Shown: piece after piece, positions 48,975 to 59,420 of the stretch
Layout: every line of letters starts with the position of its first letter
How positions within the stretch are numbered: the first letter of the stretch is position 1
Assembly: GCF_024600715.1 (NCBI RefSeq)
Contig: NZ_CP102332.1
Location: 3,100,001 to 3,164,000, forward strand
Source of the DNA: Streptomyces changanensis
Lineage (GTDB): Bacteria > Actinomycetota > Actinomycetes > Streptomycetales > Streptomycetaceae
Reading direction: 5' to 3'
DNA: 64,000 nt
Made by a program: the position numbers and the translations under genes
Notes under the pieces: generated by a model
Databases searched by the model: none
Seen by the model: only the letters and a program-made list of their open reading frames with translations
Told to the model about the DNA's origin: nothing

Positions 48975-49120
48975 GGGGCGTGCGGCTCGGGGGGCAGGAC
49001 GGGCCCGGACCGGACCGGGACCCGTGCGCCGGTTCGGAGCGGTCCTGGCACCGGGGGCAGCCGGGGTCAGGCTCGGGCAGCCCGTGCCAGGCAGGGGCTG
49101 CCCGGTCAGGCCCGGGCAAC

Positions 49121-49213
49121 CCGTGTCCGGCCGGGGCAGCCCGTGCCCGGCCGGGGCAGCCCGTGCCCGGCCGGGGCAGCCCGTGCCCGGCCGGGGCAGC
49201 CCGTGCCCGGCCG
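49121..49213. repeat. 20-bp tandem repeat array (4.6 copies)
   Basis: Unit ccgtgcccggccggggcagc: copies at 49121-49140 (one mismatch), 49141-49160, 49161-49180 and 49181-49200, and a partial copy at 49201-49213. Each unit contains the self-complementary GCCCGGCCGGGGC, so the array can fold as stacked hairpins. It fills the convergent junction before the phosphatase stop. It has no spacers and is not CRISPR. Confidence 0.9.
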
Positions 49214-49930
49214 TCAGGCCGCGAGGTCGCTCTGCCCGGCGCCGGTGGCCTCGGCGCGGGGATCGGGCAGGTCGACGGTCTGGTGGCGGGCGCCGCGCGG
49301 CGCCCGCCGGGAGCGGACGAGCCGGCCGGCGCGCGGGGAGCGGGCGAGGGCCGAGGTGAGCGGCGTCAGCAGCGCGAGGGCGACGGGCGCGAGGAGCAGC
49401 GCCACGGCCGTGCCGAGGGCGAGGCCGCCGATGACGTCGGTGGGGTAGTGCACGCCCATGTAGACGCGGCAGAAGCCCTCGGCGAGGGCGAGTCCGATGC
49501 CGGCGAGGCCGAAGCGCTTGTGGGCGACGAAGAGGCCGACGCCGATGGCCATGGCCATGGTCGAGTGGTCGCTGACGAAGGAGTAGTCCGTCTTGCCCGC
49601 GACGAGGACCTCCAGGCCCTCGTGGTCGAGGAACGGCCGGGGCCGTTCGACGAACCCGCGGATCGGCACGTTGACCAGGAGGGCGATGCCCGCGGCGAGC
49701 GGCGCCCAGATCAGCCCGGCGACGGCGGCCGCGGAGTCCTCCGGCGTGCCACGCCGGCGGACGCTCCACCAGCACCACAGCGCCACGAGGACGAGGGCCA
49801 GCATGATGCCGTACTCGCCGACGAACTCCATGACGCGGTCGAACCAGGTCGGGGCTGCCTTCGCCAGTCCGTTGATGTCGTAGAGCAGGCTGACATCGGG
49901 GTTCGAGCCATCCGATGCGAGTCCGGCCAT
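49214..49930 (-). CDS. PAP2-family undecaprenyl-diphosphatase (BcrC-like)
   Basis: A 238-residue membrane phosphatase with about five or six transmembrane helices. The PAP2 motifs are C1 IRGFVERPRPF, C2 FVSDHSTMA and C3 CRVYMGVHYPTD, with SDHS in place of PSGH and Cys at the usual Ser of C3, as in BcrC-type enzymes. It should recycle undecaprenyl pyrophosphate for peptidoglycan synthesis and may raise bacitracin tolerance. The C-terminal ~45 residues are a basic tail. Confidence 0.9.
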   Translation of the reverse strand: MAGLASDGSNPDVSLLYDINGLAKAAPTWFDRVMEFVGEYGIMLALVLVALWCWWSVRRRGTPEDSAAAVAGLIWAPLAAGIALLVNVPIRGFVERPRPFLDHEGLEVLVAGKTDYSFVSDHSTMAMAIGVGLFVAHKRFGLAGIGLALAEGFCRVYMGVHYPTDVIGGLALGTAVALLLAPVALALLTPLTSALARSPRAGRLVRSRRAPRGARHQTVDLPDPRAEATGAGQSDLAA

Positions 49931-50076: not shown

Positions 50077-51093
50077 TCAGGCGTCAGAAGCCCTCTGTGG
50101 CAACGCCTGCGCGCCGTCCCGGGTCACGCGCGTGGCACCGAAGTAGTCCGGTGTGTCGATCTTGTCGAAGCGGATCACGGCGCCGGTGAACGGGGCGTTG
50201 ATCATGTACCCGCCGCCGACGTAGATCCCGACGTGCCGGATGGCCCGGGAGTCCCGCAGGTCGTCCGAGAAGAACACCAGGTCGCCGGGGAGCAGTTCCT
50301 CCCGCGAGGGGTGCGGCCCGGCGTTGTACTGGTCGTTGGCGACGCGCGGCAGCTCGATGTCGACCGTCCGGTACGCCGCCTGCGTGAGTCCGGAGCAGTC
50401 GAACCGGCCGCCGTGCTCGGGGGTGCCGTTGCCACCCCACAGGTAGGGCTTGCCGAGCTGCTTCTGCGCGAAGTAGATGGCCCCGGCGGCCTGCCGGGAC
50501 GGCTCGACCGGGCCTACGGGCCGGGCGAAGCTCTTCTCCAGGGACCGGATGATCTTGACGTAGTTCTGCGTCTCGCTGATCGCGGGCACTCCGCCGGACT
50601 TTATGACGCGGTAGGCGCCCGCGTTGTAGGCGGCGAGCATGTTGTTCGTGGGGTCCCCGGGCACGTTCTTCACGTACGAGGCGAGTTCGCAGTCGTACGA
50701 GGCGGCGGAGGGGATGGCGTCGGCCGGGTCCCAGATGTCCCGGTCGCCGTCCTTGTCGCCGTCGATGCCGTGACTGGCCCACGTGCCGGGGATGAACTGG
50801 GCGATGCCGCGCGCGTCGGCGTGGCTGACGGCCTTGGGGTTCCACCCGCTCTCCTGGTAGAGCTGCGCGGCGAGGAGGGCGGGGTTGATGGCGGGGCAGA
50901 GGTTCCCCCACCGCTGCACCAACGACTGGTAGGCGGCCGGCACCGCGCCCTTGGCCAGTCCCACGACACCGCGCAGTCCACCGCCCCCGCCGACCAGTCC
51001 GGCGGCGGCCACGTACGTCCCGACGACGAGCAGCGCGACGAAGCTCGTGCACGCGCCGACGACGATCCCGCCGACCAGCCACCCCTTACGCAC
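50077..51093 (-). CDS. Bifunctional lytic transglycosylase-NlpC/P60 protein
   Basis: A 338-residue cell-wall enzyme with an N-terminal membrane anchor (about 5-33). A transglycosylase domain (about 50-190) carries catalytic Glu in LYQESGWNP and motifs GIAQFIPGTW and AAYNAGAY. An NlpC/P60 domain (about 205-330) carries Cys in FDCSGLTQ and His in RHVGIYV. Two-enzyme proteins of this kind occur in Gram-positive conjugation systems, where they open the wall. It is divergent from the secretion-like cluster. The GTG at 51093 is preferred (GGAGG ten bases upstream); the TTG at 51099 is possible. Confidence 0.92.
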   Translation of the reverse strand: MRKGWLVGGIVVGACTSFVALLVVGTYVAAAGLVGGGGGLRGVVGLAKGAVPAAYQSLVQRWGNLCPAINPALLAAQLYQESGWNPKAVSHADARGIAQFIPGTWASHGIDGDKDGDRDIWDPADAIPSAASYDCELASYVKNVPGDPTNNMLAAYNAGAYRVIKSGGVPAISETQNYVKIIRSLEKSFARPVGPVEPSRQAAGAIYFAQKQLGKPYLWGGNGTPEHGGRFDCSGLTQAAYRTVDIELPRVANDQYNAGPHPSREELLPGDLVFFSDDLRDSRAIRHVGIYVGGGYMINAPFTGAVIRFDKIDTPDYFGATRVTRDGAQALPQRASDA

Positions 51094-51234
51094 CGTCAAC
51101 CACCCTCCGCATAAGGCCCGTCGCGTCAGTCTAGGCGGCGCGCTCCCGCTTCAGGAGGTGGCCCGCCCGGCCTGTGGACAACACCACCGGACGCCCCGGC
51201 GCACACCGGTCGCGCGCCCGGCCCGCCGACGCCC

Positions 51235-51261
51235 CGTACCCGCCGTGGCACGGCGGGTACG
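51235..51261. other. Perfect 27-bp dyad in the divergent region
   Basis: Arms 51235-51247 and 51249-51261 are exact complements around a single G. With a one-base centre it is unlikely to fold as a tight RNA hairpin at full length and may bind a dimeric protein. It could also act as a terminator for read-through. Confidence 0.6.
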
Positions 51262-51640
51262 GACGCGTACGGAACGTGTGCGAATGAACATCAGGCCAAC
51301 GCGGAGTGCGCACGGAAGCCCCGGACGGACCCCGCCACGATGCCGCCACGGCCGGCGGGGCGGCGGCCCGACCCCCACCGGCCGGCCGGTGGCGCGCCCG
51401 CCTCCGCCACCCCGATCCCGCCTGCCGCACGGCCACGACCTGCAGCTGGCGCGACCCACCGTGACCGGCCGCTACCTGCCGTGACCTGCAAAGACCCGCG
51501 GAACCCCGGCAGCGCCGAACGTCACAGCGGCACCCATGGCGAGAAGACGACAGGAGGCGCCCGGCGGGTCCGGTCGGACACCGCGCCCCTCCGCCCGACC
51601 CCCTCACCGCACCCACGGGACCTCCACCCAACCCCCGCCA

Positions 51641-51656
51641 AGTGGTCTGGACCACT
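51641..51656. promoter_or_regulatory. DasR-type (dre-like) palindrome
   Basis: AGTGGTC-TG-GACCACT is perfectly palindromic and matches the dre consensus for the GlcNAc-6-phosphate-responsive regulator DasR (core TGGTCTAGACCA) at all but one position. It lies just upstream of the -10-like TACGCT and 86 bp before the small membrane protein gene, a position suited to repression. Confidence 0.6.
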
Positions 51657-51742
51657 GCGCTACGCTGTGCCATGCAGCCGCAAACGGCCGTGACACTCCC
51701 CGCCTACGACCAAGGGCGGGGTCAGCACCACAGGAGAACACC

Positions 51743-51877
51743 ATGGGGAACAAGGTGAGCCGACTCGGAGACTCCGGGGGAACGGCCGCCGCGATCGCTG
51801 TCATCGCACTGACCGCCGTCGCCATCGTGGTACTGGGTTACTTCCTCTTCACCCAGACGGGGCAGTCCAACCTCTGA
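51743..51877 (+). CDS. 44-residue single-pass membrane protein
   Basis: MGNKVSRLGDSGGTAAAIAV begins the protein; residues about 14-37 form one hydrophobic helix and the tail is FTQTGQSNL. AGGAGAACACC precedes the ATG. A strong hairpin follows 30 bp after the stop, so it is probably its own transcript. It lies between the transglycosylase and the secretion-like operon and may be a structural or accessory subunit. Function unknown. Confidence 0.8.
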   Translation: MGNKVSRLGDSGGTAAAIAVIALTAVAIVVLGYFLFTQTGQSNL

Positions 51878-52209
51878 CGCGCGATCATCCCGCGCTCACG
51901 CGCGCACGCCGCCGCCGGACCCGGTCCGGCGGCGGCGTTGTCATATGCGGACGAAAGCCCCGAAAGGGGAACAACGACGGTCATTGCCCGGAGTCACACC
52001 CCGTGATACACAGAGTGACCATACGTGTTTCCGTACGGGCCCGACCCCCTACCCGCCCAGGTCAGAGGCGTCGGCTCGGTCAAACGTGCGGTGATCGGGT
52101 AAAGAGACCCGCCAAGACGTCGTACGTCGGCGGTTCGATCAGCGAAGATAGTTGACGGCCCATGCCACCGGGCGGGCCGTCGAACTACCGAACAGGGGCG
52201 GTGACTTAC
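51878..52209. other. Intergenic region and promoter area of the secretion-like operon
   Basis: Apart from the terminator at 51907-51937, no gene is seen. The region 51950-52150 is AT-richer than its surroundings and holds small dyads (GTCAC-ACCCC-GTGAT near 52000; GACGT-CGT-ACGTC near 52115) that could be regulatory. No confident -35/-10 pair is assigned. Confidence 0.55.
51907..51937. terminator. 15-bp perfect stem terminator
   Basis: Arm 51907-51921 is the exact complement of 51923-51937 (GC-rich, built on GCC repeats), followed by TTGTCAT. It ends the 44-residue membrane-protein transcript and insulates the operon downstream. Confidence 0.75.
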
Positions 52210-52518
52210 ATGTACCTGGCGGCCGAGAAGGGCGACATCACCACCATCATTGGCGGAATCGCCCCGAACTGGGGCCCCTTCGGAAGCCTGGGCAACCAGG
52301 CCCGCGTGATGATCGAGATCGTGATGGCCGTGGCCATCCTGCTGTGCCTCGGCATCGCGATCTGGGGGGCGGCCAAGCAGCGCATCGGCGCGACGGCCAT
52401 GCGCGACACCTTCAGCGCCGAGCAGGGCAAGGGCCTGATCGTGGCCGGCCTGACCGGCGTCTTCATCATCGGATCTCTGGGCACCCTCTTCACCATCGTG
52501 TACGGGATGGCCGTCTGA
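52210..52518 (+). CDS. Two-helix membrane protein, VirB2/pilin-like
   Basis: A 102-residue protein. Hydrophobic helices at about 33-53 (MIEIVMAVAILLCLGIAIWG) and 77-100 (IVAGLTGVFIIGSLGTLFTI) flank a short basic loop, AAKQRIGATAMRDTFS. This two-helix hairpin matches VirB2/TrbC-type pilins and similar first genes of Gram-positive conjugation operons. There is no cleavable signal. The ATG at 52210 is preferred over GTG 52201 and ATG 52162 because GGGG is properly spaced. It begins a run of genes resembling type IV secretion components. Confidence 0.75.
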   Translation: MYLAAEKGDITTIIGGIAPNWGPFGSLGNQARVMIEIVMAVAILLCLGIAIWGAAKQRIGATAMRDTFSAEQGKGLIVAGLTGVFIIGSLGTLFTIVYGMAV

Positions 52519-52654
52519 CCCTCCCGACCGCCTGACCCGCCTTCACTTCCCGGGGCCCGCAGAGGATGCGTCTCCTGATGTCCAGTCACCACACCGCGCA
52601 CGCGTCGCGGCCACCCACACGGCACCAGCCGTCGTCCGAGGAGGCGTACCCGTC

Positions 52655-53497
52655 ATGAGCTTCGGCGACGAGTACGACGGCGGTGGCGGTCGGGGCAGGA
52701 ACCGGGGCACCACGGGCCAGACCCGCACCCGCCTCCCCGACGCGGACACCGACGACGGCTTCGGCGGCCCCGCGCGGCGCCCACCGCGCGCGTCCCGGTC
52801 GCTGGTCACCGTCGTCGGCGTGGTCGTCCTGCTGATCGCCGCCATCGCCTTCGCCAACCGCGGCGGTGACGGCGAGGGCGACACCGCCAAGGGCACCGCC
52901 CCGGGCGCCACCCCCACGGCGGCCACCGGCGTGAAGCCCGTCACCGGCAAGAACGGCACCATCCCGTCCGGCTTCCCCCAGGACGAACAGGGCGCCCAGA
53001 GCGCGGCGGCCAACTACGCGGTGGCGCTGGGATCGGCGGAGATGTTCGACAAGTCCAAGCGGGACGCGATCCTGGCCGCCGTCATCGCCCCGTCGCGCGT
53101 GACCCACTTCCGTCGGACGCTGGACCAGGCGTACTCACCCTCCTTCTTCCAGAACGTGGGCCTCAAGCCGGACGGCACGGTCCCCGACGGATTCACCTTC
53201 GTCTCCCGCACGGCCCCCATGGGCACAAAGATCACCGGTCTTGACTCGGAGCGCGCCACGGTGGCGGTCTGGTGCGCGGGGCTCCTCGGCCTGGCCGGCG
53301 AGGGCTCCACCAAACCGGTGACGAACGGCTGGTTCACCATCACGATGGAGCTCCAGTGGGTCGACGGCGACTGGAAGACCGTGACGTACTCGCAGAAGGA
53401 CGGCCCCGCCCCCGTGGGTGCCGACACCCGCGCCTCCAGTGCCGAAGAGATCGCCGACGCCGTGACGGGGTTCGGAGGATTCACTTATGCCCGCTGA
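52655..53497 (+). CDS. Single-pass membrane protein, VirB8/TcpC-like
   Basis: A 280-residue protein: cytoplasmic Gly/Arg-rich region (1-47), one transmembrane helix (about 49-67), low-complexity linker, then an extracytoplasmic alpha/beta domain (about 105-280) with ANYAVALGSAEMFDK and WFTITMELQWVDGDWKTVTY. Bitopic topology plus a domain ending in the WxxGDWKxxxY strand is typical of VirB8/TcpC-like NTF2-fold subunits. It overlaps the next gene by 11 bp. Confidence 0.8.
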   Translation: MSFGDEYDGGGGRGRNRGTTGQTRTRLPDADTDDGFGGPARRPPRASRSLVTVVGVVVLLIAAIAFANRGGDGEGDTAKGTAPGATPTAATGVKPVTGKNGTIPSGFPQDEQGAQSAAANYAVALGSAEMFDKSKRDAILAAVIAPSRVTHFRRTLDQAYSPSFFQNVGLKPDGTVPDGFTFVSRTAPMGTKITGLDSERATVAVWCAGLLGLAGEGSTKPVTNGWFTITMELQWVDGDWKTVTYSQKDGPAPVGADTRASSAEEIADAVTGFGGFTYAR

Positions 53498-54878
53498 AGC
53501 CAGGCGTCGCGCCGCCACCGTGGGCACACTTCTGCTCACCGCGCAGACGACCGCGTTCCTGCTGGCCGGACGGGCTGTAGCCGCCCCCACGCCGAGCCCG
53601 TCCCCCTCGCCCAGCCCCGATAGGAGCAACAACCCCTGCGACCTCGTCCACGGCCCCTCCCGGGACTTCTGCGAGAGTGAGGACGGGGGCGGCACCGCCC
53701 GCACCTCCCCCCTCGAACCCGGCGACGCCGTCGACCCGCTCTCCTCCCTCGCCCGCGGCTGCGCGGACGCCGCCGCCTGGACCGTCGACAAGCTCAGCGA
53801 CGCCGTGGCGTCCACCGCGGCCGTCGACTTCACCAACACCCGCTTCCTCCAGCAGTACGCGGTGGTCTTCGCCGCCTCCACCATCCTCACGCTCGTCATC
53901 TGGCTGCTCGCCGTCGCCAAGCGCGCCATCCGCGGCGTACCGCTGAGCACGGCCCTCTCCGAAGCCGTCGGCTTCCTGTGGCTGACGGTCCTCGCCTCCG
54001 CCTTCACCCCGCTGATCCTGCACACCGTCGTCTCCGCGACGGACGGCGTCACCGAGGTGATCGCCGCCGGCACCGGCGGCCAGACCGACGCGTTCTTCGG
54101 CTCGTTCGCCACCGCCCTGAAGAAGGGCGACGACATCGGCGGCGGGCCCATCATGCTGATCGTCGTGTCGCTCGTGTCGATCCTCGCCGCCGGCATCCTG
54201 TGGCTGGAACTCGTCATCCGCGCCGCGCTCCTCTACGTCGGCGCGCTCCTCGGCACCGTCGTGTACGCGGGGATCGTCGACAAGAACATGTGGGGCCACG
54301 TCCGCCGCTGGGCCGGCATCATGATCGCCGTCATCCTGGTGAAACCGGTCATCGTGATCGTCCTCGGCCTCGCCGGGGCGCTCTCCTCCGGCGACGGCCC
54401 CGACGCGTTCTCCGCCGTCGTCTCCGGCCTCGCGATCATCCTGCTCGCCATCTTCGCGTCCGCGGCGATCTACCGCTTCGTCCCCGGCTTCGGCGACGAG
54501 ATCGCCACCGCCCGCACCAACCGCAAGCAGGCCACCGACGGCGCCCAGGCCGCGGCCGTCATCTCCTCCCCCGCCGCCCTCGTCTCCCAGGGCATCAAGG
54601 CCCACAGCAGCCGCACCCACCAGCGCGCCGCCGGCGGCGCCCCCGCCGCGGCCAACGCCCTGTCCGGCGGCGTCGCCGCCCACGGCGGCCGCGGCGGCGC
54701 ACCGGCCACAGGCGGGGCCGGCGGCGGAACCGCCCCCGCCGCCGCGCCCCCGCCCCGCAGCGCCCCCACCCCGGCCCCGAGCGCCCACTCGGCCACCAAC
54801 ACCCCGCACACCAGCCGCGCCACCAACAGCGGCACCGGCAACACAGGCAACGCAGGATCAGGAGGTGCAGGGCGGTGA
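53487..54878 (+). CDS. Polytopic membrane protein, VirB6/TrbL-like
   Basis: A 463-residue protein with a signal-like N-terminus (1-~32, ending VAA), a Ser/Pro stretch and a Cys pair (NPCDLVHGPSRDFCESE). About six hydrophobic helices follow between 115 and 335, including a long amphipathic cytoplasmic part (RAIRGVPLSTALSEAVG). The last ~115 residues are Gly/Ala/Thr/Ser-rich and disordered. Organisation resembles the VirB6/TrbL channel subunit. It shares a GTGA overlap with the next gene. Confidence 0.8.
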   Translation: MPAEARRRAATVGTLLLTAQTTAFLLAGRAVAAPTPSPSPSPSPDRSNNPCDLVHGPSRDFCESEDGGGTARTSPLEPGDAVDPLSSLARGCADAAAWTVDKLSDAVASTAAVDFTNTRFLQQYAVVFAASTILTLVIWLLAVAKRAIRGVPLSTALSEAVGFLWLTVLASAFTPLILHTVVSATDGVTEVIAAGTGGQTDAFFGSFATALKKGDDIGGGPIMLIVVSLVSILAAGILWLELVIRAALLYVGALLGTVVYAGIVDKNMWGHVRRWAGIMIAVILVKPVIVIVLGLAGALSSGDGPDAFSAVVSGLAIILLAIFASAAIYRFVPGFGDEIATARTNRKQATDGAQAAAVISSPAALVSQGIKAHSSRTHQRAAGGAPAAANALSGGVAAHGGRGGAPATGGAGGGTAPAAAPPPRSAPTPAPSAHSATNTPHTSRATNSGTGNTGNAGSGGAGR

Positions 54879-56434
54879 CGACCCAGTCCCACGCGATCAC
54901 GCCCCGCCGCACGTATCTCATCGGCCGCGCCCGGCCGAGCGCGATCATCGGCAAGAACCGCGAGACGGGCGAGATCGCCCTCATCATCGCCGGGGCGTTC
55001 CTCGGCATGATGTGCGGCCTCCTCGTCCCCCTCCTCACCCTGCGCATCGCGCTGCTCACCGGCTTCCCGATGCTGGCCCTCGCCGCCGTGTACGTCCCCT
55101 ACCGCGGCCGGACCTTCTACCGCTGGTACGAGATCAACCGCAGCTACAAGCGCGTCCTGCGCCAGGGCACCACGTACCGCTCCGCCGCCATGGAGGCCGG
55201 TACGCGCCTCGACGGCCGCGAGGTCGAGGTCGGCCCGCCCCCCGGCATCGGCCGCATCAACTGGCTCTCCGCCCCCTTCGGCCCCGACGAGATCGCCGTC
55301 CTCCTCCACGCCGACCGCCGCACCGTCACCGCCGCCATCGAGATCGAGGGCCCCGGCGTCGGACTGCGCGACAGCGAGGACCAGGAAGCCCTGGTGGACC
55401 GTTTCGGCACCCTCCTCAAGCACGTCGCCAACGGCGACGGCTTCGTCACCCGCATCCAGATGCTCGCCCGTACCCTCCCCGCCGACCCCGACGCCCACGC
55501 CAAGGACGTCGCCCAGCGCGGCGACGCCCACGCGCCCCGCTGGCTCCGCGACTCCTACGAGCAGCTGCTGTCCATGGTGTCGACCTCCAGCGAGCAGCAC
55601 CGCGCGTACCTCGTCGCCTGCATGCACTACACCCGCGAACTGGCCGCCGAGGCCCACGCCATCGCCCGCGCCGCCCGCCACACCGGCGGCGGCAGGCGCG
55701 TGCGCCTCGACAAGGACGCCGGCCTCGCCGTCGTCATGGCCCGCGAGCTCACCGACATCTGCGCCCGCCTCGCCGAGGCCGACATCCGCGTCCGCCAGCC
55801 CCTCGGCCAGTCACGCCTGGCGTCCCTCGTGCACTCCATGTACGACCCGGACCACCCCATCGACCACATCCAGGCCATGACGAAGCGGAACGCCTGGCCC
55901 GCCGAGCTCGACGCCGTCGAACCGACCCACCTCCGGGCCAAGACCCGCGAGTCCGCCACCCGCGCCCCCTGGTGCCACGCCACCGCCTGGGTCAAGGAGT
56001 GGCCGATGACGCCCGTCGGCGTGAACTTCCTCGCCCCGCTGCTCGTCCACACCCCCGACGTCATCCGCACGGTCGCCGTCACGATGGATCTCGAACCCAC
56101 CGAGATCGCCATCGAGCGCATGCTCACCGAGAAGACCAACGACGAGGCCGAGGCCAGCCGCGCCGCGAAGATGAACCGCACCATCGACCCCCGTGACATC
56201 GCCGCCCACGGCCGCCTCGACCAGCGGGGTGAAGATCTCGCCAGCGGCGCGGCCGGCGTCAACCTCGTCGGGTACATCACCGTGTCGTCCCGCTCCCCCG
56301 AGGCCCTCGCCCGGGACAAGCGGACGATCCGGGCGTCGGCCGGCAAGTCGTACCTGAAGCTCGAGTGGTGCGACCGCGAACACCACCGGGCCTTCGTGAA
56401 CACGCTGCCGTTCGCCACCGGCATCCGCCGCTAG
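54875..56434 (+). CDS. SCO6880-family-like protein: VirB3/PrgI-like anchor plus VirB4-N-like domain
   Basis: A 519-residue protein. Residues about 37-78 are two adjacent transmembrane helices with the PrgI/VirB3-like surrounding (RRTYLIGRARPSAIIGKN). A long soluble region follows that resembles the non-ATPase N-terminal half of VirB4 proteins (strand-rich FGPDEIAVLLHADRRTVTA, helical AHAIARAARHT, and WVKEWPMTPVGVNFLAPLLV). No Walker motif is present. The C-terminal KSYLKLEWCDREHHRAFVN precedes the ATPase gene, as the domains are ordered in intact VirB4. GGAGGTG precedes the GTG. Confidence 0.8.
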   Translation: MTTQSHAITPRRTYLIGRARPSAIIGKNRETGEIALIIAGAFLGMMCGLLVPLLTLRIALLTGFPMLALAAVYVPYRGRTFYRWYEINRSYKRVLRQGTTYRSAAMEAGTRLDGREVEVGPPPGIGRINWLSAPFGPDEIAVLLHADRRTVTAAIEIEGPGVGLRDSEDQEALVDRFGTLLKHVANGDGFVTRIQMLARTLPADPDAHAKDVAQRGDAHAPRWLRDSYEQLLSMVSTSSEQHRAYLVACMHYTRELAAEAHAIARAARHTGGGRRVRLDKDAGLAVVMARELTDICARLAEADIRVRQPLGQSRLASLVHSMYDPDHPIDHIQAMTKRNAWPAELDAVEPTHLRAKTRESATRAPWCHATAWVKEWPMTPVGVNFLAPLLVHTPDVIRTVAVTMDLEPTEIAIERMLTEKTNDEAEASRAAKMNRTIDPRDIAAHGRLDQRGEDLASGAAGVNLVGYITVSSRSPEALARDKRTIRASAGKSYLKLEWCDREHHRAFVNTLPFATGIRR

Positions 56435-56470
56435 GCACACAGGACGAGACGATAGGACGATAGGGGCCTG

Positions 56471-57892
56471 ATGATGCGCGATCCGCTGTCCGTCCTCACC
56501 GATGCCTTCACCTCCTTCCTCTTCGGGAAGGTGGAGACCACCCGGCTGCCCGTACGCACCTCCACGGGCCAGGCCCAGGCCGTGTACCTGCCGACCGCCG
56601 CGCCCGGCCTGGGCGACTCCGGCGTGATCATCGGCCGCGAGGTGTACAGCGGCAAGGGGTACATCTACGACCCGTTCCAGCTGTACGGCCAGCAGCTCCC
56701 CGCCCCGCACTGGCTGGTGCTCGGCGAGTCCGGCAACGGCAAGTCGGCGCTGGAGAAGACGTACGTCCTGCGCCAGCTCCGCTTCCGCGACCGCCAGGTC
56801 GTCGTCCTCGACGCCCAGGGCGAGGACGGCGTCGGCGAGTGGAACCTCATCGCGGAGCAGCTGGGGATAACGCCCGTCCGCCTCGACCCGAGGGCCGCCC
56901 TCGACGACGGCATCCGCCTCAACCCCCTCGACCCGGCCATCACCACGACCGGCCAGCTCGCCCTGCTCCGCACCATCATCGAGGTCGCCCTGGGCCACGG
57001 ACTCGACGAGCGGTCCGGCTTCGCGCTGAAGGTCGCCCACGCCTACGTCAACGCCACCATCACCGACCGCCAGCCCGTCCTGACCGACATCGTCGAGCAG
57101 CTCCGCCACCCCGAACCGGAGTCCGCCGAGGCCATGAACGTCGACATAGACGACGTACGCGCCTGGGGCCTCGACGTCGCGCTCGTCCTCGACCGGCTCG
57201 TCGACGGCGACCTGCGCGGCATGTTCGACGGCCCCACGACCGTCGGCATCGACCTCGACGCGCCGCTCACCGTCTTCGACCTGTCGCACATCGACCGCAA
57301 CTCCATCGCCATGCCCATCCTCATGGCGATCGTCGGCGTGTGGCTGGAGCACACCTGGATCCGCCCCGACCGGAAGAAGCGCATCTTCCTCGTCGAGGAG
57401 GCCTGGCACATCATCAACAGCCCGTTCGTGGCGCAGCTGTTCCAGCGGCTGCTGAAGTTCGGCCGTCGGCTCGGCCTGTCCTTCGTCGCCGTCGTCCACC
57501 ACCTCAGCGACGTCGTCGACGGCGCGGCCGCGCGCGAGGCGGCGGCCATCCTCAAGATGGCCTCCACCAGGACGATCTACGCCCAGAAGGCCGACGAGGC
57601 ACGCGCCACCGGACGCGTCCTCGGCCTGCCGCGCTGGGCCGTCGAGATCATCCCGACCCTCACGCCCGGCATCGCCGTCTGGGACGTCAACGGCAACGTC
57701 CAGGTGGTGAAACACCTCATCACCGAAGCCGAACGCCCCCTCGTCTACACGGACCGCGCCATGACCGAGTCCGCGCCGCACGACCTGCCCGACGACCTGC
57801 CCGACGACCTCAAGGCCGCCGAATGGGAGGCGGAGCAGCGCGCGGCCCTCATGGAACGCCACATGAACGACTCGGAATCGACGGTGGCGTGA
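56471..57892 (+). CDS. VirB4-like ATPase
   Basis: A 473-residue P-loop ATPase. Walker A is LGESGNGKSALEKT (residues about 84-97), a VirB4/TraC-like sequence. Walker B is RIFLVEEAWHIIN (about 303-315), and the downstream motif VAVVHHLSDVVDG is also family-typical. The acidic tail contains PDDLPDD repeats. The protein lacks the VirB4 N-terminal domain, which the preceding gene seems to supply. It likely powers assembly or transport at the membrane. Start ATG 56471 or 56474; the upstream gap is 36 bp. Confidence 0.9.
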   Translation: MMRDPLSVLTDAFTSFLFGKVETTRLPVRTSTGQAQAVYLPTAAPGLGDSGVIIGREVYSGKGYIYDPFQLYGQQLPAPHWLVLGESGNGKSALEKTYVLRQLRFRDRQVVVLDAQGEDGVGEWNLIAEQLGITPVRLDPRAALDDGIRLNPLDPAITTTGQLALLRTIIEVALGHGLDERSGFALKVAHAYVNATITDRQPVLTDIVEQLRHPEPESAEAMNVDIDDVRAWGLDVALVLDRLVDGDLRGMFDGPTTVGIDLDAPLTVFDLSHIDRNSIAMPILMAIVGVWLEHTWIRPDRKKRIFLVEEAWHIINSPFVAQLFQRLLKFGRRLGLSFVAVVHHLSDVVDGAAAREAAAILKMASTRTIYAQKADEARATGRVLGLPRWAVEIIPTLTPGIAVWDVNGNVQVVKHLITEAERPLVYTDRAMTESAPHDLPDDLPDDLKAAEWEAEQRAALMERHMNDSESTVA

Positions 57893-57893
57893 C

Positions 57894-59420
57894 GTGGGCC
57901 GCCCACCCGAGACGCGCGGAACCCAGGGAGGCGTCCCCGACGGGCTGCTCGTGGGGCTGCTGGCGCTCCTGTTCGCCTCGACGTTGATGGTGTGGACGGC
58001 GAGCGGCCTCGCCGGGCTGTTCGCCCACGGCTCCTGGCCCGCGGGCGTCACCTTCGGCCGCTCGCCGCTCGCCCTGCGCTCCCTGGTCACCGACCCGCGG
58101 GGCATGGCCGCTGCCTGGCCGGCGACACCCGCGGACCAGCTGCCGGGCCACGGCGTGTTCTGGGGGCTGCTGATCGGCGAGTTGATGGTGCTCGCCGTGC
58201 TGGCCGTCTTCGCCGTGGGGACGGTGTCCCGCTGGCGCGCGGTACGCGCGGCGGCCCGCGCCGACCGGGGCCACGGCCCCCGGGCCACCACCCCGGCCCC
58301 GCTCCAAGCCCCGGCCCCGCTCCAGGAGCAGGCCCCGGCGGAAGCACCCGCAGCACCACCCGCACCGGCACCCACGCCCACCCCGCTCCCGGCACCCACA
58401 CCCGCACCCGCACCCGCACCGGCCACACCACCCGCCACCGCCGCGCCACCCGCCACCGCCACGGCGTTCCCGGCGCCCCGTACGCCGGCACCGCGCGTCC
58501 TGTACGGCGACCGCGCCACCCGCCGCCCCAGTACTCTCCAGGCCGTCCAGGACGCGGTGGGTCCCGTCCTCGTCGTCACGTCCGACCCCACCGTGTGGGC
58601 CGAGACGAAGGACGCCCGCGCCAAGCTGGGCCCGGTCCTCCTCTACGACCCCGGGCACCTCTGCGACACCCCGGCCCGCCTCCACTGGTCCCCCGCGGAC
58701 GGCTGCGAGGACACCGGTACGGCGGCGGCCCGCGCCACCGCGCTCCTCGCCCCCGTACGCCCCCGGGCGCGCCTCGACGCCGCGGTCGCCGACACCGCCG
58801 AGACCCTCCTGCGCTGCTGGCTGCACGCCGCCGCCGTCGACGGCCGGCCCTTCCGGCAGGTGCACCGCTGGGCACAGAACACCGGCAGCGCCCACGAGCC
58901 CGTACGCATCCTCCGCATACACCCCAGGGCCACCAACAGCCACGCCGGTCTCCTGGAGTCGGCGCTCACCGCCCACCCCGAACGCCGCGAAGCCGCCCGC
59001 GCCCTGACGCTCCGGGCGCTCTCCGCCCTCACCACGGTCCACGTCCGCGAGTCGTGCACACCGAATCGAACTGATTCGCTGACCTTGGAATCATTCATCG
59101 CCGAAGGGGGCAGCCTTTATGTGGTGGGCGAACCCGTGGAGGACCCCCGGACGGCACCCGGAGCCATGCCCCTCCTCACCGCCCTCACCGCACACGTGGT
59201 CGAGCACGGCCGCCGCATGGCCGCACGGTCATCTGACGGTCGGCTCGACCCACCAATGAGCCTCGTCCTCGACGACGTCGCCGCGGTCGCCCCGCTCCCC
59301 CAGCTCCCGGCGCTCCTCTCCACCGGCCACGACCAGGGCCTCCCCACCCTCGCCCTGCTCCGCTCCCACGAACAGGCCCGCGCCCGCTGGACCGATCCCC
59401 TCCCGACCCCGATCCCCTGA
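57894..59420 (+). CDS. VirD4/TraG-like membrane protein lacking Walker A
   Basis: A 508-residue protein. Two transmembrane helices (about 19-42 and 86-112) precede a Pro/Ala-rich linker (120-200). The soluble domain aligns in pattern with VirD4/TraG coupling proteins: VLVVTSDPTVWAETKDARAK, LLYDPGHL...WSPADGCED, and a Walker-B-like SLVLDDVAAVAPLPQLPALL followed by TLALLRSHEQARARW. Where Walker A should lie (before VLVVTS) there is only LYGDRATRRPSTLQAVQDA, with no GxxxxGKT. It may be a structural pseudo-ATPase. One base separates it from the ATPase gene. Confidence 0.8.
   Translation: MGRPPETRGTQGGVPDGLLVGLLALLFASTLMVWTASGLAGLFAHGSWPAGVTFGRSPLALRSLVTDPRGMAAAWPATPADQLPGHGVFWGLLIGELMVLAVLAVFAVGTVSRWRAVRAAARADRGHGPRATTPAPLQAPAPLQEQAPAEAPAAPPAPAPTPTPLPAPTPAPAPAPATPPATAAPPATATAFPAPRTPAPRVLYGDRATRRPSTLQAVQDAVGPVLVVTSDPTVWAETKDARAKLGPVLLYDPGHLCDTPARLHWSPADGCEDTGTAAARATALLAPVRPRARLDAAVADTAETLLRCWLHAAAVDGRPFRQVHRWAQNTGSAHEPVRILRIHPRATNSHAGLLESALTAHPERREAARALTLRALSALTTVHVRESCTPNRTDSLTLESFIAEGGSLYVVGEPVEDPRTAPGAMPLLTALTAHVVEHGRRMAARSSDGRLDPPMSLVLDDVAAVAPLPQLPALLSTGHDQGLPTLALLRSHEQARARWTDPLPTPIP

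Follow-up and report, generated by a model that had tools for sequence, protein, structure and literature searches.

Why should a bacterial chromosome keep a set of type IV secretion genes next to which neither a relaxase nor an integrase is detected? The question is posed by a 64-kb stretch of the Streptomyces changanensis genome (hereafter, the window; C1:3100001-3164000 of a 6.9-Mb genome in two contigs), in which six genes on one strand and a divergent gene for a wall hydrolase correspond, in content and order, to cmdABCDEF (SCO4126-4131) and tgdA (SCO4132) of Streptomyces coelicolor. We propose that the cmd locus is probably a type IV secretion system (T4SS) of the actinobacterial plasmid (SCO6880) lineage that has been domesticated and fixed in the chromosome; it would handle a substrate other than DNA and act in development. 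Underlying this reading are T4SS ancestry, a conserved motor, an inactive or lost coupling ATPase, a usually linked wall hydrolase and an inheritance that, in outline, follows family and genus. Whereas T4SS are usually known as DNA-transfer or host-attack machines, Cmd seems to have become a vertically transmitted component of development. A type IV-like channel was already proposed for these genes in 2009 (PMC2782261); what is added here to the channel idea is the assignment of the subunits, the finding that the coupling protein is dead, and the record across the order.

Identity of the Cmd subunits

The genes of the block, with positions counted from the first nucleotide of the window, are as follows.

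50077-51099, minus strand: tgdA (SCO4132 counterpart), SLT transglycosylase plus NlpC/P60 peptidase, divergent from the operon
51743-51877, plus strand: 44-aa membrane open reading frame (ORF) in the tgdA-cmdF gap
52210-52518, plus strand: cmdF, membrane protein of 102 aa with two helices, likened to VirB2/pilins chiefly because of its position
52655-53497, plus strand: cmdE, bitopic VirB8-type protein with an extracytoplasmic NTF2-like domain at about residues 100-255
53487-54878, plus strand: cmdD, polytopic VirB6/TrbL-type channel protein (moderate confidence)
54875-56434, plus strand: cmdC, SCO6880 family, with possibly VirB3/PrgI-like N-terminal segments and possibly a VirB4 N-terminal-type domain
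56471-57892, plus strand: cmdB, predicted VirB4-type motor ATPase, the VirB4 C-terminal half as a separate protein
57894-59420, plus strand: cmdA, degenerate VirD4/TraG-type coupling protein

The junctions from cmdF to cmdA are, in order, a 136-bp gap, overlaps of 11 and 4 bp, and spacers of 36 and 1 bp; all frames are present, and the gene order and junction lengths given in the initial annotation of the window were exact. The start codon of CmdF is ATG 52210, as in most aligned orthologues; for CmdC it is GTG 54875, although the mechanical ORF listing extends the open frame to 53978-56434. The correspondence to SCO4126-SCO4131, which that annotation had named, was borne out by the gene order and by the mutagenic primers described in PMC2782261: translated by eye, these encode VQVV-K/R-HLIT as well as ESGNG-x-SALE, the P-loop, and the window CmdB contains the two stretches with K.

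CmdB is, judging from its sequence, a VirB4-type motor. It matches Pfam AAA_10 (6.9e-14) and P-loop_TraG above the cut-offs and VirB4 structure 4ag5 in the Protein Data Bank (PDB; 8.7e-6), with both Walker A and Walker B present in 37 of 37 members; matches to the VirB4/TraC NCBIfam models, as well as weak TrwB and HerA (DUF87) matches beside AAA_10, fall below the cut-offs. Structure comparison revealed a VirB8 fold in CmdE, for which VIA-align places T4SS entries at ranks 1-27 and the plastid protein ARC6 at rank 37, whereas Foldseek places ARC6 at ranks 1-2 and an IcmL/VirB8-like protein at rank 3. CmdE is, on this evidence, a VirB8-type bitopic protein, and the listing of SCO4130 (CmdE) as a membrane glycoprotein (PMC6593405) fits an extracytoplasmic location of its domain. 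We further suggest that DUF8175 (PF26526), linked through source names, is a VirB8-type domain. CmdD is, with moderate confidence, a VirB6-like polytopic protein, its fold being moderately matched by VIA-align, and sequence-profile searches of CmdE, CmdD and CmdF against the PDB returned nothing useful. T4SS folds accordingly extend beyond the ATPase, and the VirB4-, VirB8- and VirB6-like calls of the initial annotation hold, the last with moderate confidence.

The labels of the two remaining subunits are less firm. CmdC belongs to NCBIfam SCO6880_fam (3.8e-54, above the cut-off; found in 15 of 15 members) and carries two N-terminal hydrophobic segments, and may combine VirB3 with the N-terminal half of VirB4. 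Its further matches are weak (PrgI in 1/15 members, E 0.006; the conju_CD1110 VirB4 model in 1/15; EccE of type VII secretion systems in 2/15), and the CmdC profile retrieved no VirB4 structure from the PDB, the best row being a stathmin-like coiled coil (9e-4). CmdF has two hydrophobic segments and a mean identity of 92% in 21 Streptomyces loci; its position and its size suit a pilin, and Pfam T4SS_pilin gives weak matches to three of 18 members, the best at E 0.013. The two-helix architecture and the SCO6880 family membership stand, and the evidence for the pilin and VirB3 labels that had been attached to them is weak. Family or fold identity is established for CmdB, CmdE, CmdA and TgdA (the latter two are described below), and with moderate confidence for CmdD.

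A degenerate coupling protein

CmdA is, by its sequence profile, a VirD4-family protein: the family profile matches TrwB (1e9r) at 5.1e-10, and all 11 members match TraG-D_C with E <=0.1. The VirD4-like assignment made earlier is upheld as to ancestry but not as to activity, because the protein, with two hydrophobic segments and a Pro-rich linker, has no Walker A and a truncated C-terminus, so that its coupling ATPase appears to be dead. We aligned 27 Cmd-type and five plasmid-type proteins with lengths 0.6-1.5 times that of the query, leaving out the g96 stubs and two Streptomyces hits (L091 and L094). The plasmid-type relatives have a P-loop, GKT in four and GKG in one (L090), and 145-175 residues after Walker B, compared with 37 in the window CmdA. 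The P-loop is missing in 26 of the 27 Cmd-type proteins and reads GKA in the other (L073, family f42); a GK[ST] string at residue 150 of one Cmd-type CmdA (L092) lies in the linker, not at the P-loop position. The DE of Walker B is changed to DD, DS, DQ, ED or HD, and the part that follows is longest in L073 (115 residues), intermediate in three other genera (95-107) and shortest in the remaining proteins (35-61).

In some lineages, the gene itself has apparently gone. Tblastn searches with several CmdA queries (E 1e-3) found no CmdA downstream of CmdB in 8/8 loci of genus g108 and 11/11 loci of family f43, and only the N-terminal two-helix stub in 3/3 g96 and 2/2 g99 loci; neither the gene nor, where a stub remains, its ATPase half was found in these 24 loci, a result that a very diverged copy could escape. 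Because the CmdB tree, which does not include g99, places f43, the g108 member L082 and g96 apart from one another, at least three losses are implied. A replacement coupling protein elsewhere in the window genome was considered and rejected, as the TraG-D_C profile matches only a second T4SS-like locus (see below). Thus, wherever this can be judged from sequence, Cmd loci seem to lack a working VirD4 coupling ATPase, either through inactivation or because none is found. The loci seem to document how a conjugation machine can give up DNA transport: the coupling ATPase died and was later reduced or removed altogether in three lineages or more, whereas the VirB4 motor and the VirB6-like and VirB8 parts were kept.

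Relationship to plasmid-borne and other secretion systems

Among 72,556 plasmid records, 80 contain a CmdC relative, and the ten best of these (39-42% identity) come from Streptomyces (eight), Kitasatospora and Actinacidiphila (one each). We inspected two of these ten carriers, together with a Citricoccus plasmid found with CmdA. On S. alboflavus pMDJK44.2, genes for a transglycosylase/C40 peptidase, F, E, D, C and B, an extra gene and A follow one another in one direction, and all seven Cmd and hydrolase genes are homologous to those of the window; the plasmid is typed MOBF by PLSDB, the relaxase gene itself not having been located. The same order, F-E-D-C-B-A, with an adjoining wall hydrolase (weakly matched), is seen in the S. 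chartreusis linear plasmid NZ_CP108821. Mean identity of plasmid-type loci to the window proteins is 31-48% per protein. Unlike the window CmdA, the VirD4 of these two plasmid systems carries a GKT P-loop, with 145-174 residues following Walker B, and, unlike pMDJK44.2, the window genome has no detected MOBF relaxase. A wall hydrolase lies beside the CmdF-like gene in each of the four plasmid-type clusters examined: SLT/NlpC in L089, M23 in L071, and CHAP/NlpC/SLT-like matches below the Pfam cut-off in L088 and L070 (L070 and L071 are 365- and 564-kb contigs taken as plasmids). As a separate observation, NZ_CP108821 is typed 'non-mobilizable' by MOB-suite despite a complete SCO6880-type cluster with an intact VirD4 P-loop, suggesting that such transfer systems may be overlooked.

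The second T4SS-like locus of the window genome (C1:5945001-5985000; L068, L069) encodes a VirB4-type ATPase 36% identical to CmdB, with one stop flagged inside the match, a CmdC-like stretch (25%), an NlpC enzyme and a full-length VirD4, which, unlike CmdA, is intact (TraG-D_C 6.9e-35; P-loop APRSGKTT). It may correspond to SCO6871-6884, a region in which null mutants of SCO6878 or SCO6881 were found to develop normally (cited as unpublished in PMC2782261).

Cmd differs from the Gram-positive conjugation systems (pIP501, pCF10 and their kin) in its inactive coupling protein and in that no relaxase is detected. The VirD4-less systems of Gram-negative bacteria, Bordetella Ptl, Brucella VirB and Bartonella Trw, act on hosts and operate in diderms, whereas Cmd resides in a monoderm, is fixed across an order and is needed for the development of its own bearer. 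Like Cmd, they are powered by VirB4 without a coupling protein (PMC12857230).

Conservation and selection

CmdB orthologues were identified in 61/61 genomes of the genus (89-95% identity besides the window genome itself), in 121/121 genomes and 17/17 genera of the family and in 118/119 genomes of the order sample, including 13/13 from two other families. In G464, the only miss, tgdA is present and cmdD sits close to the end of a contig, so that an assembly gap is likely. Of 246 class-level genomes, 35 match CmdB at 1e-50, 24 of them within the genus; ten of the 11 outside matches are relatives at 32-38% identity, and one (G067, 78%), a metagenome-assembled genome named Sporichthyaceae with 6% contamination, has the block. 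Across 36 orthologous loci (L072-L087, L091-L110), CmdF, CmdC and CmdB are present in 36/36 and CmdE and CmdD in 35/36. The sole locus without CmdD and CmdE, that of G320, also has no TgdA at the main cmd locus. G320 contains two extra TgdA-plus-CmdD loci of the kind noticed in genus g96 (L119, L120, L121, L122), where TgdA-like and CmdD-like genes (in L120, also a CmdF-like one) have no CmdB or CmdC match nearby.

In the CmdB tree, Cmd forms one clade (UFBoot 97; 100 after trimming), inside which family f43 and genus g96 are each monophyletic, and support is low within the Streptomyces part; in outline, inheritance of cmd follows family and genus. The ratio of nonsynonymous to synonymous substitution rates (dN/dS), obtained from simple Nei-Gojobori counts on pairwise alignments of up to five close Streptomyces pairs, is below 1 in every pair tested: 0-0.04 for CmdF (five pairs), 0.04-0.11 for CmdB, 0.08-0.14 for CmdC, 0.14-0.15 for TgdA (two pairs), 0.26-0.31 for CmdD, 0.34-0.43 for CmdA (four pairs) and 0.18-0.54 for CmdE. 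The motor CmdB and the small membrane subunit CmdF are the most constrained, and the VirB8-type CmdE the least. The ratios point to purifying selection and, together with the conservation across the order, show the block to be no chance array of frames.

Two further features were noted in passing. In many drafts (e.g. G002:C9, G015:C5, G032:C13 and G054:C9), only a few kb separate the cmd locus from the end of its contig, perhaps because the Pro-rich, GC-rich cmdA linker breaks assembly. In G324, G456 and G474, CmdB is split into two adjacent pieces, which could be assembly errors or real breaks.

Absence of detectable mobility functions

No integrase, relaxase or replication family was matched among the 10 ORFs flanking the block, no tRNA was found in the window, and no near-exact direct repeats bracket the block; one G+C-rich repeat pair of 52 nt (51375 and 59717; 73% identical) spans it, probably by chance. 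The MOBF (TrwC) relaxase domain has no match in the whole genome, in a search that covered this relaxase family only. These scans agree with the initial annotation, which had seen no relaxase, integrase, attachment site or replication gene. A recent insertion of a plasmid or an integrative and conjugative element (ICE) was rejected in view of the core distribution, with no relaxase or integrase detected nearby. According to an ICE survey, all its strains carry a defective ICE at about mid-chromosome (PMC9513070); we suspect, without proof, that this is the cmd locus.

The wall hydrolase and the tgdA-cmdF gap

TgdA, with Pfam SLT (1.5e-16) and NLPC_P60 (8.1e-25) domains behind one N-terminal transmembrane helix, is a putative wall-opening enzyme of the VirB1/CwlT type. 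Its gene lies upstream of cmdF within the fetched stretch in 28 of the 36 loci (cut by the edge in two) and just outside it in a 29th (G012), and is absent within about 7 kb upstream of cmdF in six. The annotation of a divergent transglycosylase-NlpC enzyme is thereby vindicated. The 44-residue membrane protein also placed beside the operon is not conserved: the 44-aa ORF has no tblastn match at its place in 40 related loci, was rejected as a subunit and is probably not part of the system. In other Streptomyces, the gene content of the gap varies (DUF1023-like hydrolases, sedolisin-type proteases and regulators; labels by eye); genes were called in 15 loci, only part of which this description covers. 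No conserved cargo emerged among the gap stretches viewed, and cargo genes at this place were rejected. In L091, L096, L103 and L107, the gap contains genes for a DUF1023-like hydrolase and a small lipoprotein (labels likewise by eye).

A role in development

The initial annotation had regarded the function as unsettled; it is less open than that, because knock-outs have been published. In S. coelicolor, the cmd genes are co-transcribed, and the cmdB transcript rises during development; single deletions, except that of cmdA, give light-grey colonies with seemingly fewer spores, and the cmdB and cmdA-F mutants branch aberrantly and form 6-8% anucleate spores, against 0.1% in the wild type, with uneven nucleoids in deletion strains (PMC2782261). 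Blue pigment is overproduced upon deletion of cmdB, D, E or the entire cmdA-F cluster, whereas deletion of cmdA, C or F has no such effect; the cluster mutant transcribes actII-orf4 early, and sporulation is also defective when the cluster is mutated in S. lividans or S. avermitilis (PMC2782261). In an insertion survey, tgdA and cmdBCDEF are among the peaks for raised actinorhodin, a phenotype shared by SCO5677 mutants (PMC6585502). The lack of a sporulation phenotype upon cmdA deletion is consistent with the loss of the CmdA P-loop and gene described above.

The knock-out phenotype was published in 2009 without a mechanism, and we offer a subunit-by-subunit hypothesis. In the 2009 description, CmdB, C and D are related to genes of SLP2, and VirB4 is invoked for CmdB alone; in its available text, no VirB8, VirB6, VirB1 or VirD4 counterpart is named and the dead P-loop of CmdA is unreported (PMC2782261). 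We found no description of Cmd as a full T4SS in the literature searched, and the available part of a 2025 review of T4SS nomenclature mentions Streptomyces only around TraB-type transfer (PMC12857230). TgdA would make a local opening in the peptidoglycan, a channel from membrane to wall would be formed by CmdE and CmdD together with CmdF and CmdC, and CmdB would hydrolyse ATP, either to assemble the channel or to push the substrate. The latter would be a protein or the CmdF subunits themselves rather than DNA, since no relaxase is detected and the coupling ATPase does not appear to work. The machine would act in aerial hyphae, so that its loss would disturb branching and septation, with knock-on effects on chromosome partition and the control of actinorhodin. 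It follows from this scheme that CmdB, C, D, E, F and TgdA should matter and CmdA should not. The interpretation of the block as a domesticated trans-envelope machine gains from the CmdE and CmdD folds, the CmdB motor, the CmdA family and the core distribution; confidence in it is slightly tempered by the moderate VirB6 match and the possibility that searches for CmdA missed very diverged copies.

More tentatively, and with the odds somewhat against the proposal as a whole, Cmd might be the first T4SS known as a core developmental organelle of an entire order, relieved of DNA as cargo through inactivation and repeated loss of the coupling ATPase, exporting a protein or building a CmdF pore or filament through the TgdA-opened wall of aerial hyphae, and tuned by CmdE (dN/dS up to 0.54) to the envelope or partner of each species.

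Among the alternatives, the one that survives best, although we consider it unlikely, is a wall-remodelling platform without any transported substrate, in which the ATPase and the membrane ring do no more than position and activate TgdA, so that peptidoglycan is cut at branch or septum sites. The usual divergent placement of tgdA, the rise of actinorhodin in tgdA mutants to the level of cmdBCDEF mutants (PMC6585502) and the branching and septation phenotypes (PMC2782261) speak for such a platform. However, a VirB6-like channel and a highly conserved two-helix subunit under selection seem to exceed the needs of an activator, and TgdA evolves more freely than CmdF, CmdB and CmdC.

Somewhat less probable still is a surface filament or short pilus of CmdF in aerial hyphae. 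The hyperconservation of CmdF counts in its favour, but exposed pilins usually vary, whereas CmdF hardly does, and the Pfam pilin match is weak. The combination of a VirB4-type motor and a pilin-like subunit without a working coupling protein does resemble the VirD4-less Bartonella Trw system, for which such a structure has been proposed (PMC12857230).

The third alternative, that CmdB-F move DNA, chromosomal or plasmid-borne, through septa or from hypha to hypha, with VirB4 rather than VirD4 as the motor, was suggested by the 2009 authors (PMC2782261) and was also among the functions entertained in the initial annotation, beside protein secretion and wall remodelling; we regard it as improbable. 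The uneven nucleoids and anucleate spores would suit DNA translocation, as would the weak TrwB and HerA matches of CmdB and the grouping of VirB4 proteins with DNA-pump ATPases (PMC12857230). Yet the coupling ATPase is inactivated or not found at every judgeable orthologous locus, which argues against hyphal DNA transfer, the genome has no detected MOBF relaxase, transfer of an SLP2-derived plasmid was unchanged by the cluster deletion (data not shown in PMC2782261), and septation defects can themselves cause segregation defects. Finally, a defective ICE or other decaying mobile element on its way to being lost, to which the decayed coupling protein and the lack of a detected relaxase might point, is scarcely credible given the presence of cmd in 121/121 family genomes and in sister families instead of a sporadic distribution (61/61, 121/121, 118/119), the dN/dS of 0-0.14 for CmdF, CmdB and CmdC and the knock-out phenotypes.

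Flanking genes

The surroundings of the block are ordinary, in line with the housekeeping flanks noted at the outset. In a profile scan of 10 ORFs, two of which gave no match, the left flank encodes a phosphate-type solute-binding protein, PHO4, PhoU_div, an FAD oxidase and PAP2, and the right flank GNAT, an ABC ATPase and a histidine kinase. Tandem repeats of about 20 bp at 49054-49235 occupy the 3' end of the PAP2 gene (49214-49930, minus strand) and the sequence just beyond it.

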